The notes under the pieces: model-generated
Seen by the model: only the letters and a program-made list of their open reading frames with translations
The model's database searches: none
Told to the model about the DNA's origin: nothing
Translations under genes and position numbers: made by a program
Part shown: piece after piece, positions 40,766 through 49,123 of the stretch
How positions within the stretch are numbered: the stretch's first letter is position 1
Layout: each line of letters begins with the position of its first letter
Assembly: GCA_013314715.1 (NCBI GenBank)
Contig: JABUFC010000024.1
Span: forward strand, 1 to 49,123
Length of the DNA stretch: 49,123 nt
Direction of reading: 5' to 3'
From: Bacteroidales bacterium
GTDB taxonomy: Bacteria; Bacteroidota; Bacteroidia; Bacteroidales; GWA2-32-17

Positions 40766-42862
40766 CTAACTAATTTTACTCCAGTCAATTTTTTCATTCT
40801 TTAATTTTTTTAACTTATTAGCTAGCATGGGGAATTCAGATAAAAAGTTGTTATTGTTTAAAACATGTTGGGCATCGGAGCGTGCGAGATTCATTATGGG
40901 TTCATCGAATGTAAGCGAGGCAATTTTTAATTCAAAGGGCATACCGCTTTGTTGAGTTCCTTCGATATCGCCAGGTCCTCGAAGTTCTAAATCTTTTTCG
41001 GCTATATAAAAACCATCATTCGATTCTACCATAATGGCTATACGTTGGCGTGCTTCTTTGCTAAGCTCTTGTTTAGTCATAAGTATGCAATACGATTGTT
41101 CGTTGCCACGTCCAACTCGTCCGCGTAATTGATGCAATTGCGAAAGTCCAAATCGTTCAGCGCTTTCGATTACCATTACAGAGGCATTGGGAACATTTAC
41201 GCCTACCTCAATTACAGTTGTCGCAATCATTATTTGTGCTTTACCTTCTACAAAATATTTCATCGAGAGTTCTTTATCTTGAGGTTTCATCTGACCGTGA
41301 ACAACAGCAATAAAGTATTGGGGAGGTGGAAATTCACGCGAGTAACTCTCGTATCCATCTTCGAGATCTTTATAATCAAAGGTTTCTGACTCTTTAATGA
41401 GAGGAAAAACTACATATATTTGTCTTCCAAGTGCTATTTGTTCTTTTAAAAATTTAAATAGTGTTAGTCGTTTACTGTCGGTTAAATGGACTGTTTTAAT
41501 AGGTTTTCTACCTGGAGGAAGCTCGTCTATAATAGAAACATCTAAGTCTCCATATACGGTCATTGCTAATGTTCGAGGTATAGGAGTTGCCGTCATTACT
41601 AAAACATGGGGTTCATTGGTGTTTTTTTGCCATAATTTTGCTCTTTGAGCAACACCAAAGCGATGTTGTTCGTCAATTATTACAAGACCTAAATTTTTAA
41701 ATTGTACAGTATTTTCAATTAAAGCGTGAGTACCTAAAATAATGTGTACCTCACCCTTTAAAAGACCGCTATGTATAGTTTTACGTTCTGAGGTTTTTGA
41801 TGAACCTGTTAATAGTTCAATCCGAATAGGTAAGTTTTTACATAGTTCATTAAGAGTAGCAAAATGTTGCTGAGCTAAAATCTCAGTAGGAGCCATTAAA
41901 CATGCCTGATAACCATTATCGATTGCCATCAACATTGCCAAAAGAGCTACAACCGTTTTGCCGCTTCCAACATCTCCCTGTATGAGTCGGTTCATTTGCT
42001 TCCCTGAAGTTACATCTTTGCGTATGTCGCTTAGTACTTTAATTTGAGCTTGGGTAAGCTTAAAGGGCAATTGATGATATAATATTTTCGTGTAGTAATC
42101 TTTTTCTTTTGAAAATATAAAGCCGTTGATGTTGTTTAAACGATATTTTTTTAAACTTAAAATATTGAGCTGAATGTAAAATAACTCTTCGTATTTGAGT
42201 CGATATTGAGCCTTTTTTAACGTTTCGTAATTACTTGGAAAATGAATCTGTTGTAATGCTTCTTGTAAAGGGAGTAAGTTATTTTTATTTATTATTTCAA
42301 TAGGAAGAGGATCTTGAATGAGTGAATAATATTGTTTAATTATGCTTTGTTGAATTTTTAATATGTTTTTTGAGTTTATTTGATGTTTCTTGAGTTTTTC
42401 AGGAATAGAATAATAAGGTTGTAACCCTTTATTTATGTTTTGTTCATAATTTATCCATAGTTCAATATCGGGGTGAGTAATATTAATGGAGCGATTAAAT
42501 AATGTTGGCTTTCCTAAGATAACGATATTGGTATTTAAAGGTACTGATTTTTGAATCCATTGAAATGAATTAAACCAAATAAGCTCGATGGTTCCGGTAT
42601 GGTCGGCAAAAATGCCAACCAATCGTTGAGCTTTACCATCACCCACTATTTTATAGTCGATTATTTTCCCTTTGAGCTGTACATAAGGAAGTTCTTCGTT
42701 TAATTCACTAATACTATAAAATTTGCTTCTATCGATATACTTATAAGGAAAAAAATAAAGCATGTCTTCAATAGTAAAAATATTCAAATACTTAGCAAAG
42801 AGTTCGGCACGTTTAGGTCCAACTCCAGTAACAAATTGAATATTATCGTTGATAGATGCCAT
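40766..42862 (-). CDS. recG: ATP-dependent DNA helicase RecG
   Basis: This 698-residue branch-migration helicase reverses stalled forks and processes recombination intermediates. The N-terminal wedge/OB region (about 1-230) includes VTGVGPKRAELFAKYLNI; Walker A is QGDVGSGKTVVALLAMLMA, DEQHRFG is motif II, and LHQLRGRVGRG is motif VI, followed by the RecG C-terminal stretch RGPGDIEGTQQSG. The ATG at 42862 is chosen: an upstream TTG at 42875-42877 would lie inside the -7 promoter box. Confidence 0.94.
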   Translation of the reverse strand: MASINDNIQFVTGVGPKRAELFAKYLNIFTIEDMLYFFPYKYIDRSKFYSISELNEELPYVQLKGKIIDYKIVGDGKAQRLVGIFADHTGTIELIWFNSFQWIQKSVPLNTNIVILGKPTLFNRSINITHPDIELWINYEQNINKGLQPYYSIPEKLKKHQINSKNILKIQQSIIKQYYSLIQDPLPIEIINKNNLLPLQEALQQIHFPSNYETLKKAQYRLKYEELFYIQLNILSLKKYRLNNINGFIFSKEKDYYTKILYHQLPFKLTQAQIKVLSDIRKDVTSGKQMNRLIQGDVGSGKTVVALLAMLMAIDNGYQACLMAPTEILAQQHFATLNELCKNLPIRIELLTGSSKTSERKTIHSGLLKGEVHIILGTHALIENTVQFKNLGLVIIDEQHRFGVAQRAKLWQKNTNEPHVLVMTATPIPRTLAMTVYGDLDVSIIDELPPGRKPIKTVHLTDSKRLTLFKFLKEQIALGRQIYVVFPLIKESETFDYKDLEDGYESYSREFPPPQYFIAVVHGQMKPQDKELSMKYFVEGKAQIMIATTVIEVGVNVPNASVMVIESAERFGLSQLHQLRGRVGRGNEQSYCILMTKQELSKEARQRIAIMVESNDGFYIAEKDLELRGPGDIEGTQQSGMPFELKIASLTFDEPIMNLARSDAQHVLNNNNFLSEFPMLANKLKKLKNEKIDWSKIS

Positions 42863-42874
42863 TATTTTTGTATG

Positions 42875-42905
42875 CAAACTTACATTTTTTTACTCAATAC
42901 TGAAA
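42875..42905 (-). promoter_or_regulatory. Promoter of recG
   Basis: On the minus strand TAAGTTTG (42882 to 42875) is a perfect -7 box, with TTTC 19 bp upstream at the -33 position. The box lies only 12 bp before the ATG, so the leader would be very short. It lies just past the terminator of the giant surface protein gene. Confidence 0.65.
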
Positions 42906-42968: not shown

Positions 42969-45900
42969 TTAACGAATTACCGATACTGCACCCGATTTGA
43001 TATGTTCAACATTGCTGGGGTCATAGTATTTAACTAACCAAGTATAGGTGCCAATGGGTACATCTTTGTTGTTTTTAGCTCTGCCGTCCCAACCATATTT
43101 AGGAGGATCGTTAGGATCGTATTTGTCGGTTTCGTAAATAATTTCACCCCAACGATCATATATATACATTTTAAAATTCTTGGATGTAATGCCATTGCCA
43201 ACAACATAAAAAATATCATTCAAATCGTCATTATCAGGCGAAATATAGGTAGGAGCGTAGAATGTGTATTCATCACGAACAGGTACATAGCTTCGAGCTG
43301 TGTCTTTACAACCATAATTAGTAACAGCTATCAGTTCTGCCAAATAATTGCCAATATGATGATACCAGTGATATGGATTTTGAGCATTGGATGAATCGCC
43401 ATCGCCAAATGCCCAAATATACATATCGGCATCGGCTGATAGATTTGTAAACAATACTTCTGGGTCAACAATACTGGGCACGAGTGGTGAAAAAATAAAG
43501 CGAGCATCGGGAGTTGGATATACGCGAATCATGTCTTGGTATGTGTATGAGTTTATACATCCATGAGGACTGGTAATAGTTAGAGTAATATCATATAAAC
43601 CATCGTTATTAAAAGTATGTACAGGGTTTTGGTCAAACGATATTTCACTTTGACTGCCATCTCCAAAGTTCCACTGATAGTTTTGACCGGGTGAGCTTAC
43701 TTGTGGATGAAAAGTAACGGTTAGTGGTTCGCAACCGCTTACTATATCGGAGCTAAATTGTACTTCTGGTAAAGGATGTACGGTTATATAAACAGAATCA
43801 TGGGCAACAGAACCGCAAACATCTTTTACATAAAGCATGTAATAGCCCGATTCTTGAGGATAAATGCTTACGGGTGGGGTAACTACTGTTCCGTCTGGCA
43901 ATGTAATTAAATAGGGTGGACCACCTCCAGCATACATATTGGGGGTAAGTTGTACTTCTTGACCCGGACAAACAGCCATTGGAGAGGCCGTTACATCTAC
44001 AACCAGTGGTGAAGAAACAGTTATATTAATGTTTACGGTATTGCTCGTGCATCCATGTGCATCAGTGGCAGAAACGGTGTAAGTGGTATTAGTTGTGGGT
44101 TGTATTCCTATAGAAGAATTCCCTGGGTTGCCATTCCAATAGAAGGTATAATTAGGAGTACCACCTGTGGCATTGGCAGTTAAATAAGCCCATTCGCCAT
44201 TACAAATGTTATATAGGTTTTGAGCACTTACGACCAATGGGCTTGGTTCGTTTATAATAACCGATCCGGTTTTACTACATCCACGGGAGTCGGTAACTGT
44301 AACCGTATAATTACCAGCAGCTAAATGATTGAATTGTGAAATTGTATCGGTTATATTGGGAATACTATAGTACCAAGTTCCAACACCTCCAGTAATATAT
44401 ATAGTTATAGTACCGTCATTTGAACCATTACAGGTTAAATCGGTTTTGTCAATTTGGGTGATGACTAATTCGCTTGGTTCTGGAACCATGGCAGTTGCTG
44501 TAGAAGAACACCCATTGGCGTCAGTAACGGTTACAAAATGTGTACCTGCACATAAAGAATTATTGGTAGGCAAATCCGGTGTACCACTGCTCCAGTTGTA
44601 TGCGTATGGAGGTGTGCCTCCCGATGCGGTTACAGTAGCTGAACCATTGCAATCGCCATAGCATTGTGTAGCTTGAATATTATTTATCTGCGAAGTTAAT
44701 TCAGTGGGTTCATTTATGGTAGCAGAAGTAGTGGCAGTACATCCATTTACATCGAAGACAGTAACATCATATTGTCCTGCACATAAGCTTGTAGCGGTGG
44801 GGTTATTGGTGTTATTGGACCATGAATAAGAATAAGGAGCTACACCATTAGTTATTGTAACAGTTGCAGAACCGGTGCATTGTCCATGACATAATACATC
44901 AATAGTAGATGAAATGTTGGCTATAACTTGTGGTGTCTCTGTTAAAATAAAACTTTGAGTGGCTGTACAGTTGTTGGCATCGGCTACCGTTACATAGTAG
45001 TTGCCAGCACAAAGAGAGTTAATGCTTGGAGTACTAGCTAAGTTAGACCATTGATAAGTGTACGAAGTAGAGGTGCCACCTGTACCAGCTACTTGAATAC
45101 TACCATTACACTGTCCGAAGCATGTTGGGTTAATAGTAGCAATAGTTTGAATATTTACAGCCGACGGTTCTGTTAATGTAAAATCGTGAGTTACTAAGCA
45201 ACCATTTCCATCTGTAATGCTAACAGTATAAGTTCCTGCTGCTAAATTATTGGCAGTATCCGAAGTACTTACATTGTTTGTCCAATTATATGTATAGCTA
45301 CCGGTTCCGCCTGTTACGCTAACGGTTGCCATACCACTATTATTTTGATAACAGGTTAAATTTGTTTGATTAGGAACTACCACAATGGGGTTAGGTTCGG
45401 TAACGGTAAAAGGGTAGGTAAGAGAGCAGTTGTTGACATCGGTAATGGTTACAGAATAAGTGCCGGCTGGGAATGGAGGTCCTGTTGTATTCGACCATTG
45501 ATATGAATATTGAGGAGTGCCACCCGTAACATTGATTGTAACCGTACCATTTGTATCACTTGCACAAGTTACAGGGCTCACATTTACATTAGCATTTAGG
45601 GCAGGAGGTTGATTGATGGTAACGGTTGCTGTGTTAGAGGGACAATGGTTATCTACTATTTGAAGAGATATATTAATATTACCTGGGGTTGTCCAGGTAA
45701 CTTGATAAGGACCTGAGCCCGAGCCCGAAACAATGGTAGCGTCGGTTCCAAAATTCCAGTTATAGTTTGCTGTTCCTGTGGCAGAACCGGTGAAAGTAAT
45801 AGTTGAAGCTTGACCGTAACAATCGATAGGTGTTGCGGTAAACGATGCTACGGGCTGTTGTATAAATGTAATTACAACCGTATCTCTATCTTCGCAACCT

Positions 45901-48506
45901 GTTCCGTTCACTTCGTGCCAATCGTATGAATAAGTTCCTGCCTGACTTACTGTGACCGAGGTGTTTGCAGAATGATTATTTTGAAACGAAGATACTCCAG
46001 GTCCGCTTATTTGAGTCCATGTGCCAACTCCAAGTGAAGCAATAGCTTGAAGATTATAGTTTAAACCACAGATACTATCATCAGCACCAGCATTTGTTGT
46101 TGGCATAATACAACAATAAGGATGCCCATAAGGTAAAACGGTTAGAGTGTGCTGCGTTTGAGTAGAACTACATCCATTTTGCGTAACAGTTAACGAAATA
46201 GTGTAAGCTCCATCGTTGGTATATTGAACCACATAGGGTCCTTGTCCACTTCCGCTAATAACAGTTCCACCACCAAAATCCCATGTATAAGTGGCAGTTG
46301 CAGGTGCTGACCCTGTATACTGGATAGTGGTTGTGCTGTTGATGCAAATAGAATCGTTATAATTAAAAGTTGATGTTGGCTGTTGTATAAATGTAATTAC
46401 AACCGTATCTCTATCTTCGCAACCTGTTCCGTTCACTTCGTGCCAATCGTATGAATAAGTTCCTGCCTGACTTACTGTGACCGAGGTGTTTGCAGAATGA
46501 TTATTTTGAAACGAAGATACTCCAGGTCCGCTTATTTGAGTCCATGTGCCAACTCCAAGTGAAGCAATAGCTTGAAGATTATAGTTTAAACCACAGATAC
46601 TATCATCAGCACCAGCATTTGTTGTTGGCATAATACAACAATAAGGATGCCCATAAGGTAAAACGGTTAGAGTGTGCTGCGTTTGAGTAGAACTACATCC
46701 ATTTTGCGTAACAGTTAACGAAATAGTGTAAGCTCCATCGTTGGTATATTGAACCACATAGGGTCCTTGTCCACTTCCGCTAATAACAGTTCCACCACCA
46801 AAATCCCATGTATAAGTGGCAGTTGCAGGTGCTGACCCTGTATACTGGATAGTGGTTGTGCTGTTGATGCAAATAGAATCGTTATAATTAAAAGTTGATG
46901 TTGGCTGTGGTTCCACTGTAACGTCTTGAGTTGTTACAAAATCGCATAAGGTATCCGTAATAGTTATGGTACCATTGCATTTTAGTTTAAAATCATCAAT
47001 ATTCCATCCTTTGTAAGTTACACTTCCATCGGTAGTTCCAATTCCAAAACGTACCTTAAAATTGGAGTTATTGGTAGCCTGTGGAACCGAATAGGTTCTT
47101 AACGTCCAAGCTGTTTCGTTAAGCGATGAAGTATTAGTCCAAATTTGTTGCCATGCAGAGCCGTTATAAGCTTCAATATACATATGGTCGTAGGTTGGAC
47201 TTTCAACACCGCTATGACTATAAAATTCGATATTACAGGTATTTAAGTTTGCGCAGTTTATAGTTGGGCTTGTAAGCCAATAAGTTTGAGTTAAGCTGTT
47301 TTGATAACATCCACCAAGCCAATTCCCGATAATGTAATTATCGGAAGTAGCTGTATGGTCTTGTGATGGGTCTTGACTTCCGCTACAACCCGAACTTCCT
47401 GTTGCCGATCCCCTTGTCCATTGAGTTCCATAACCTGTCCATCCTTTATCGGTAGAAAAGTCGTCGAAAAAGAAAGTTAACATTCCGGTAGCCGAGTTTG
47501 TAGTAACATAGTAATGGTGGTAAGTAATGGTATGTGTTCCCACGCCTGCAATAGATGGGTCAAATGCATTGCCCGATATTCCTGGACCCGAAAATACTCC
47601 AGGCGTAGGGCTGCCTGTTAAAGTCGAAGGAGCATCGGTTACACAATAAGTATTGTTTAATCCGCTAATAGACATAGTTGGAGGTGGATATACGGCAACA
47701 TATACGCTATCTGATGCAGAAGCTGAGGTAACTGAAACTGTTGCAACAAAATATCCGCTTGTTTGAGCAGTTATGGTTGTGCTATATGTATTATTTGATA
47801 CAACGTTGCCATTGTAAATACCTTGTATTACTTGGCTGGGAGGAGGGCAGAAAATTTGTACATTATCGAGCCCCCAGTGGTCGTAGTTGTTTCCTGATGT
47901 TACATCCTGATACCAGCTAAACCAAACAGTACCATTTACCGGCACGTTTTCGCAATAATGCTGCCAGGTGGTTAATACCGGATCGTATCCTCCATTAGGA
48001 TCCCAATAATTTATATCGATCCATGGACCGCTTGGTCCTGCAGTAGAATATTGTAAATGTACCCCTTCAGTTGATTCGTCGGGTCCTTCGCAGGGTGATG
48101 AATTTGATTCAGAAGCGTATTTCATATCAAAACATATCTGACATTGTGTTGTTACATTGTAACCAACAGTTGTAAGCCTTCGTGGAAAGCTTGTTGCAGG
48201 TCCTATCCATAGGTATGTAGTTCCATCAGATCCTGGTCCGCAAGGATTATTAAACATAGGTGAAGCATTCGATGACCAACCTGTTCCTATGTTTCCGTTA
48301 TTAAAATCGTTGTTCATCATATACGTAGGACATCCGGCATCGGGATAGGCAAAACTAACCTGATCGCCTTGACAAATTTTTATTGTATCAGGGTTTAATA
48401 AAAAATCGCCATTGTAATATACGGTATCAATGGTTAAAGAACATTGCGAAAAACCTTGAAATGACAACAAAGTATATAAAATGACTATCTGAAAAAATCT
48501 ATTCAT
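42969..48506 (-). CDS. Giant surface protein with PKD and SprB-type repeats, T9SS type B cargo
   Basis: This 1845-residue exported protein has a signal peptide (about 1-20), a reelin/MAM-like domain (about 57-215), an Ig-like stretch, a second MAM-like domain (about 345-510), two identical 175-residue PKD-containing units (about 536-885), a further PKD unit, six SprB-type repeats (about 965-1420, each ending in a TDxxGCxxT and EP pattern), further Ig/PKD domains (WNFGDGSQSE, IWAFGDGDSS) and a CHU_C/type B sorting domain (last ~85 residues: DDLNDIFYV, IYDRWGEIIYET, GTYTWLVKY). It resembles the gliding adhesin SprB in kind, though much shorter. Adhesion is the likely role. No PorP/SprF-type partner gene is adjacent. 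It looks richer in G+C than its neighbours. Confidence 0.9.
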   Translation of the reverse strand: MNRFFQIVILYTLLSFQGFSQCSLTIDTVYYNGDFLLNPDTIKICQGDQVSFAYPDAGCPTYMMNNDFNNGNIGTGWSSNASPMFNNPCGPGSDGTTYLWIGPATSFPRRLTTVGYNVTTQCQICFDMKYASESNSSPCEGPDESTEGVHLQYSTAGPSGPWIDINYWDPNGGYDPVLTTWQHYCENVPVNGTVWFSWYQDVTSGNNYDHWGLDNVQIFCPPPSQVIQGIYNGNVVSNNTYSTTITAQTSGYFVATVSVTSASASDSVYVAVYPPPTMSISGLNNTYCVTDAPSTLTGSPTPGVFSGPGISGNAFDPSIAGVGTHTITYHHYYVTTNSATGMLTFFFDDFSTDKGWTGYGTQWTRGSATGSSGCSGSQDPSQDHTATSDNYIIGNWLGGCYQNSLTQTYWLTSPTINCANLNTCNIEFYSHSGVESPTYDHMYIEAYNGSAWQQIWTNTSSLNETAWTLRTYSVPQATNNSNFKVRFGIGTTDGSVTYKGWNIDDFKLKCNGTITITDTLCDFVTTQDVTVEPQPTSTFNYNDSICINSTTTIQYTGSAPATATYTWDFGGGTVISGSGQGPYVVQYTNDGAYTISLTVTQNGCSSTQTQHTLTVLPYGHPYCCIMPTTNAGADDSICGLNYNLQAIASLGVGTWTQISGPGVSSFQNNHSANTSVTVSQAGTYSYDWHEVNGTGCEDRDTVVITFIQQPTSTFNYNDSICINSTTTIQYTGSAPATATYTWDFGGGTVISGSGQGPYVVQYTNDGAYTISLTVTQNGCSSTQTQHTLTVLPYGHPYCCIMPTTNAGADDSICGLNYNLQAIASLGVGTWTQISGPGVSSFQNNHSANTSVTVSQAGTYSYDWHEVNGTGCEDRDTVVITFIQQPVASFTATPIDCYGQASTITFTGSATGTANYNWNFGTDATIVSGSGSGPYQVTWTTPGNINISLQIVDNHCPSNTATVTINQPPALNANVNVSPVTCASDTNGTVTINVTGGTPQYSYQWSNTTGPPFPAGTYSVTITDVNNCSLTYPFTVTEPNPIVVVPNQTNLTCYQNNSGMATVSVTGGTGSYTYNWTNNVSTSDTANNLAAGTYTVSITDGNGCLVTHDFTLTEPSAVNIQTIATINPTCFGQCNGSIQVAGTGGTSTSYTYQWSNLASTPSINSLCAGNYYVTVADANNCTATQSFILTETPQVIANISSTIDVLCHGQCTGSATVTITNGVAPYSYSWSNNTNNPTATSLCAGQYDVTVFDVNGCTATTSATINEPTELTSQINNIQATQCYGDCNGSATVTASGGTPPYAYNWSSGTPDLPTNNSLCAGTHFVTVTDANGCSSTATAMVPEPSELVITQIDKTDLTCNGSNDGTITIYITGGVGTWYYSIPNITDTISQFNHLAAGNYTVTVTDSRGCSKTGSVIINEPSPLVVSAQNLYNICNGEWAYLTANATGGTPNYTFYWNGNPGNSSIGIQPTTNTTYTVSATDAHGCTSNTVNINITVSSPLVVDVTASPMAVCPGQEVQLTPNMYAGGGPPYLITLPDGTVVTPPVSIYPQESGYYMLYVKDVCGSVAHDSVYITVHPLPEVQFSSDIVSGCEPLTVTFHPQVSSPGQNYQWNFGDGSQSEISFDQNPVHTFNNDGLYDITLTITSPHGCINSYTYQDMIRVYPTPDARFIFSPLVPSIVDPEVLFTNLSADADMYIWAFGDGDSSNAQNPYHWYHHIGNYLAELIAVTNYGCKDTARSYVPVRDEYTFYAPTYISPDNDDLNDIFYVVGNGITSKNFKMYIYDRWGEIIYETDKYDPNDPPKYGWDGRAKNNKDVPIGTYTWLVKYYDPSNVEHIKSGAVSVIR
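44248..45610 (-). repeat. Six SprB-type protein repeats
   Basis: About six consecutive units of roughly 75 residues, each with a Cys-containing opening (TCYQNNSG, TCFGQCNG, LCHGQCTG, QCYGDCNG and similar), a GGTPxYxYxWSN centre and a GTYTVTVTDxNGC ending. The units have diverged, unlike the duplicated segment at 45853-46902. Confidence 0.85.
45853..46902 (-). repeat. Perfect 525-bp in-frame tandem duplication
   Basis: 45853-46377 and 46378-46902 read as the same sequence throughout; identity continues 6 bp (GGCTGT) into the right flank. The 525-bp period is 175 codons, so the reading frame is kept. Each unit encodes a PKD-like domain (WDFGGGTVISGSGQGPYVV) plus a Cys-rich beta stretch. Confidence 0.93.
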
Positions 48507-48936
48507 AGAATTCTACTTTAAAATTCACAATTTCAAATTTCGATAATACTGAACTTCGGTTGTTTTGCAATTGTTTAATATATACCATTAGTCCTTTGGG
48601 AGAGGTTTTATCGCAATTCCCTTCGATGCTTTCCGAAGGAGCTAATTCGATGGTATAAGTATTTTCGGAAGTTTTGGGTTTGTCGCATGTTACACATGCG
48701 CCGTTGAGCCAATTATCTATATTCCAACTTATAGTTGCATGCAGGTTAGTAGTATTGACCAATTGTAATTGATAAAATAGCTGATGAATGCCATTTGCAT
48801 TGTCATGACATTCTATTTCGCGAGCGAATATCTGAATACCTTGTTCTTCTTTAATAATCTTTATAGGATTATTTTGGCTCAACATCACTTGTTGACCTAA
48901 TAGGGCAAAAAATGCAAAAACAAAAATGGTTCTCAT
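48499..48936 (-). CDS. Small secreted protein of unknown function
   Basis: This 145-residue protein has a signal peptide (about residues 1-20, ends MLSQ). The mature part is probably all-beta and contains four Cys, among them the pair in NGACVTCDKP and one in SIEGNCDKTS. I do not recognise the family. Its end overlaps the start of the giant surface protein by 8 bp, and it is the first gene after a consensus promoter, so the two are co-transcribed and probably translationally coupled. It has no T9SS sorting domain. A role as periplasmic or surface partner of the giant protein is an inference from context only. Confidence 0.75.
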   Translation of the reverse strand: MRTIFVFAFFALLGQQVMLSQNNPIKIIKEEQGIQIFAREIECHDNANGIHQLFYQLQLVNTTNLHATISWNIDNWLNGACVTCDKPKTSENTYTIELAPSESIEGNCDKTSPKGLMVYIKQLQNNRSSVLSKFEIVNFKVEFYE

Positions 48937-48997
48937 AAAAATTTATTTTTAGACGTTGATTTTCTGAATTGGTTGCCAAGATAGCTATTATTTTGTG

Positions 48998-49009
48998 AGA
49001 CCTTTGCAA
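48998..49009. repeat. Copy of the MITE-like end sequence
   Basis: AGACCTTTGCAA is identical to the first 12 bases of the left end of the element at 17271. No matching partner end lies between here and the window edge. Confidence 0.5.
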
Positions 49010-49037
49010 AATTATATTATTTTTTTGATATATCAAA
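49007..49037 (-). promoter_or_regulatory. Promoter of the small secreted protein/giant surface protein pair
   Basis: On the minus strand TTTG (49037 to 49034), a 19-bp spacer and TAATTTTG (49014 to 49007) fit the Bacteroidetes consensus at every fixed position. A perfect 18-bp AT-rich palindrome (49022-49039, centre GATATATC) overlaps the -33 box and could be an operator. The leader is about 60-65 nt. Confidence 0.7.
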
Positions 49038-49123
49038 AATATTTGCCTAAAATTGAATTTTTAAGGTAATGATTCAAATTGCAGGACGATTTTATTCAAA
49101 AAAACATCTTTTTTAAAGCCAAA

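Follow-up and report, generated by a model that had tools for sequence, protein, structure and literature searches.

In the draft genome of a member of the Bacteroidales (lineage GWA2-32-17; assembly GCA_013314715.1), a two-domain module of 175 codons has, in what we consider a likely reading of the sequence, been multiplied recently and come to be shared by two genes for surface proteins, X and Y, with a chimeric join between them in the contig. The window analysed, meaning the whole stretch of 49,123 nucleotides, is contig C24 (JABUFC010000024.1) of a draft listed as 99.52% complete, which totals 3,000,994 bases over 100 contigs, the smallest having 2377 bases. Two identical copies of the module lie side by side within one open frame of the window, the parts and surroundings of which are as follows:

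48499..48936, minus strand: 145-residue ORF upstream of X, with a homologue at 42-56% identity and no Pfam family
46903..48506, minus strand: X-prefix, the N-terminal ~533 residues of the frame, orthologous to gene X of relatives
46378..46902, minus strand: unit 1 (first in gene direction), 175 codons, from the exact match to unit 2 and Pfam
45853..46377, minus strand: unit 2 (second in gene direction), identical to unit 1
42969..45852, minus strand: Y-suffix, the orthologue of the last part of gene Y in relatives, with SprB repeats, PKD and the type IX secretion signal CHU_C
45846..45972, no strand assigned: C74 fork, 127 bases identical to the first 127 bases of contig C74 of the same genome
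46378..46383, no strand assigned: junction word GGCTGT, repeated at 45853-45858 and 46903-46908

The initial annotation had described the units as an apparently perfect, frame-keeping duplication among SprB-type repeats that have diverged, an observation that is confirmed. At an offset of 525, a base-by-base self-match of the window runs from 45853 to 46383, 531 bases with 0 mismatches; units 45853-46377 and 46378-46902 are thus identical over all 525 bases, silent positions included, which is far beyond chance. Both are in frame on the minus strand within ORF 42969-48506 (1845 residues), at exactly 175 codons each. The identity extends 6 bases past 525, and with GGCTGT (coding strand ACAGCC) present at 45853, 46378 and 46903 the unit-unit junction is ambiguous by 6 bases. 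No other offset gave a shared 30-mer among the direct repeats of the window, so the neighbouring SprB repeats are without comparable identity. The unit pair is absent from the list returned by Tandem Repeats Finder, in which the longest period is 500. There is no N in the window.

Pfam recognises two domains in each unit, PKD (PF18911, E 2.4e-08) and K319L-like PKD (PF22352, E 3.6e-09), and the whole frame carries SprB repeats, PKD domains and a CHU_C signal (PF13585, residues 1752-1839, E 2.6e-14), which was likewise found in C74 and in both X and Y of the relative G003. The genome encodes SprA, the one secretion component searched for (SprA_N, PF14349, at G000:C4:76509-78095, E 1.2e-179; 0/14 control genomes). 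By these domains, the frame is a predicted cargo of type IX secretion with PKD/SprB repeats. The G+C of the surface gene (42969-48506) is 0.403, above the 0.339 of the whole window. An origin of the unit by import from elsewhere is disfavoured by its own G+C (0.406), which equals that of the gene, and, more weakly, by a search of 295 genomes of the order (own included; two candidates scored for each genome listed), in which it was matched only in its own genome, G001 (72%) and G004 (68%), the unit-bearing G003, G005, G006 and G008 being absent among the matches.

The protein was matched somewhere in 55 of 60 genomes, its own included, and in the close genomes the N-terminal and C-terminal halves of the frame map to two different genes, X and Y. 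Over its first 712 residues, protein identity to X is 75% in G003 and 62-65% in G004, G005, G006 and G008, and in G001 it is 75% over 519 residues. For example, X of G003 is a protein of 1449 residues, the start of which matches the N-terminal part of the window frame and residues 675-1449 of which match C74 over all its 776 residues (70%). Y of G003 has 1332 residues; its start matches C78, a further contig of the genome under study (57% over 348 residues), and its remainder matches the C-terminal part of the window frame (68% over 1083 residues), the match beginning within unit 2, after which ~960 residues of the window frame follow. The start and end of Y lie in one frame in five relatives (G003, G004, G005, G006 and G008), and in G001 the contig begins within Y. 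Directly upstream of X, a homologue of the 145-residue ORF was seen in 5/6 X-bearing relatives (not in G005). X and Y of G003 have no 31-mer in common in the fetched regions.

As far as the contigs run, the X genes of the six relatives contain one close unit each (54-73% protein identity) together with weaker related modules; the contig of G001 carries only 148 of the 175 unit residues, and those of G005, G006 and G008 end at the unit or within ~25 residues after it, where further copies are possible. At the unit's place in Y, diverged modules only (35-45%) are found in G001, G003 and G008. Gene order was considered as proof of the join and set aside as uninformative, the downstream order not being conserved: with the filter used, neither the genes of C74 downstream of X nor RecG (window 40766-42877) had a counterpart around X or Y of G003 in the fetched regions, and the G003 neighbours of X and Y map to other contigs of the genome under study. 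No second genome of the species is among the 9 loci in relatives, a listing that may omit records of the genome under study or of one very near it.

The halves of X and Y that the window frame lacks are cut off at the ends of other contigs in this genome: the frame consists of the X-prefix, the two units and the Y-suffix, in this order, and C74 and C78 hold the X-suffix and the Y-prefix, respectively, each at a contig end. Besides the two units themselves, a search of the genome with the unit returned three weaker matches and an exact one of 120 bases at the very start of C74. The full exact match to the window gene takes up bases 1-127 of C74 and lies at window 45846-45972, the end of unit 2, and an overlap of exactly 127 bases recurs in 13 contig-end pairs, the commonest value when 95 starts and 87 ends were compared; 127 is presumably the assembler's k-mer step, typical of SPAdes. 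The start of C74 consequently looks like an assembly-graph fork inside the window contig. On the side of Y, C78 stops short of the repeat: its last 400 bases have no more than 12 bases in common with the gene, and its last 300 have no close match on any other contig of the genome, so the Y side of the link is missing. At the far end of the window, the last 127 bases (48997-49123) are common to the ends of contigs C87, C1, C39 and C29, and the window contig thus stops at a multi-copy repeat.

From the 127-base overlaps, and from its named relatives being metagenome genomes, the draft appears to have been built from short metagenome reads. In metagenome assemblies, according to the review PMC8021871, read pairs come from fragments under 1000 bases and many repeats stay unresolved. 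The exact repeat in the window is ~1056 bases, beyond what a short read pair spans, which makes a false join the likeliest reading; most likely, the 1845-residue frame is chimeric, its two parts having been joined over a repeat that exceeds the reach of short reads. The initial annotation had named an assembly artefact as one case that would undo the duplication, and the suspicion is warranted for the linkage of X to Y. The repeat itself, in contrast, is probably real, as is the existence of reads across the unit-unit junction, since no more than 6 bases are common to the two sides of this junction, far fewer than 127, and N is absent from the window. If the junction is real, the 3' end of the unit is needed in three places in two genes, namely ahead of a unit, of the Y-suffix and of the X-suffix. 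A recent duplication or homogenisation of the module, as was first proposed, is supported by the identical units, by the exact unit 3' end at the start of C74 and by near-identical stretches in paralogues of three relatives.

In those three relatives, G004, G006 and G008, two copies of the module from one genome resemble each other more closely than orthologues from different species do. The X contig of G006 and that of G008 stop at the unit or directly behind it, and the final 141 bases of each recur exactly on a second contig, which bears another surface gene, Z; for G004, the alignment of X with Z covers 765 bases at 92% identity, the last 141 of which are exact and common to a third contig too. 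Over the last 141 bp of the unit, X and Z of one genome are 97.9% (G004), 100% (G006) and 99.3% (G008) identical, with 3, 0 and 1 codon differences, respectively, every one silent, and between these species identity is 73.8-84.4%, with 13-24 silent and 5-8 other codon differences. In the 108 bp just upstream, X-Z identity drops to 80.6% in G004, 80.6% in G006 and 77.8% in G008. In this stretch the X genes of G004 and G006 are 87.0% identical and their Z genes 83.3%, above the X-Z values of those two genomes, and G008 is mixed, its X-Z value exceeding the identity of its X to X of G004 (72.2%) and of G006 (70.4%) and falling below that of its Z to Z of G006 (81.5%). FastTree trees of these short pieces are weakly resolved; in the right piece the G008 pair has a support of 1.000 and the G004 pair 0.326, and in the left (108 bp) piece X and Z of G008 still pair (0.956). 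Such a pattern is what conversion between paralogues would leave. Contig-end bases that are shared over the assembler's k-mer length are one graph node by construction, and beyond it the independent X-Z match runs for 34 bases in G006, for 81 in G008 (past one mismatch) and for most of the 765-base alignment in G004. In the genome under study, the counterpart is the 127 bases exact between window and C74.

The Z genes themselves (L177 on G004:C79, L169 on G006:C119 and L171 on G008:C102) have an N-terminal part of their own, 57-79% identical in protein among the three, and converge on the module found in X. The idea that contig breaks close to the unit mark a repeat in every relative was rejected: the X contig ends of G001 and G005 are without a close or exact match elsewhere and do not count as support.

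The repeat of the window is one of several in its genome. Exact in-frame repeats of at least 100 bp within one open frame occur on five contigs, C24 (the window), C56, C52, C37 and C21, of the ~1.83 Mb searched (1,887,518 bases less three stretches). The repeat frames of C56, C52, C37 and C21 each run off a sequence end; by eye, those of C56 and C52 are Ig- or PKD-like, that of C37 is SprB-like, and that of C21 is not of this kind. Three of the repeats lie in long repetitive frames: 548 bp at an offset of 792 (C56:2212, L101), 137 bp at an offset of 216 (C52:204, L097) and 169 bp at an offset of 474 (C37:29208, L228). On C19 (C19:52104-52838; L211 5536-6270), moreover, a stretch of 366 bp is repeated exactly and in tandem (369 matching bases), and no frame runs through both copies; each copy has a small frame beside sequence that resembles a tRNA 3' end, and by eye this small frame looks like a GIY-YIG nuclease.

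In the mechanism that we favour, the module (PKD plus K319L-like PKD, 175 codons), single in the X gene of relatives, would have been multiplied recently in this genome, and at least its 3' end would now also precede the C-terminal part of Y, a second type IX-secreted surface gene. The tandem pair of copies would belong to X, to Y or to both genes. The tandem pair may have arisen by slippage or unequal crossover and the sharing between X and Y by non-reciprocal recombination, either conversion or module insertion; the assembler, having entered the repeat from X, would then have left it into Y and produced the 1845-residue frame.

Alternatively, the contig may be right, X and Y having truly recombined at the module in the lineage or in part of the population, with C78 and C74 as the reciprocal Y-X hybrid. 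The assembler's path contains no N, and the recurrence of module sharing between paralogues in the family lends such an event some plausibility. In the relatives examined, nevertheless, X and Y are two genes; the unit's 3' end opens C74 as well, which calls for extra copies besides a crossover; and C78 and C74 show no overlap (no word longer than 10 bases in common in the stretches compared). On balance, we regard a true hybrid as unlikely. No less doubtful, and best treated as speculation, is the wider view that PKD-type modules are continually exchanged among the giant type IX-secreted proteins of this family, between different N-terminal heads and C-terminal tails, each genome holding a shuffled, length-variable set of hybrids of which the one in the window, with its two identical units, would be real and freshly made, perhaps in part of the population.

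Less probable again is one real gene of 1845 residues with a fresh tandem duplication, the copy number of which tunes protein length. The exact in-frame units of 175 codons would suit it, and the part of PMC5266723 that deals with W83, TDC60 and ATCC 33277 was counted in its favour, but in relatives the two parts of the frame belong to separate genes, of which X has a single close unit per genome over the length of contig available. The proposal of the initial annotation that copy number could tune the length of this protein is therefore not supported, the frame being probably a join of X and Y. Finally, the tandem pair could be a product of assembly only, with one unit per gene and two unit-bearing paths laid end to end. 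The fork at 45846-45972 does take the contig through an ambiguous place, yet the 6 bases shared at the junction, set against the 127-base overlaps of the draft, and the lack of any N make this very improbable.

The closest known system is that of the hagA, rgpA and kgp genes of Porphyromonas gingivalis, for which PMC5266723 reports identical repeats within and between genes that automated assembly could not fully resolve; its authors describe combinatorial modularity and name gene conversion. The present case is similar in that surface proteins of Bacteroidales have identical repeats within and between genes and a modular domain order, and differs in that the P. gingivalis account concerns cleaved-adhesin domains and compares strains, whereas here a PKD pair is seen in a single draft (PMC5266723). 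There is also a likeness, by domains alone, to SprB-type repeat proteins with CHU_C, given the SprB repeats, PKD and CHU_C in one frame and SprA in the genome, although the duplicated unit is the PKD pair and not an SprB repeat. Among the titles listed in an open-access library, none was on module copying or conversion in PKD/SprB proteins. Our reading is that a module has probably been copied or converted recently between surface proteins secreted by the type IX system, as is known for hagA, rgpA and kgp of Porphyromonas, and we file the case as one that would extend this known kind of repeat sharing to surface proteins with PKD modules.

From the draft, the 1845-residue protein would be annotated as one gene, and it probably does not exist as read; X and Y are probably each cut in half. 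In three relatives, too, the module ends contigs at shared sequence, and the lengths and repertoires of such proteins taken from drafts are thus unreliable there. Should conversion between paralogues prove as common as these four genomes of a single family suggest, it would be a source of surface variation in uncultured Bacteroidales, much as in the gingipains.
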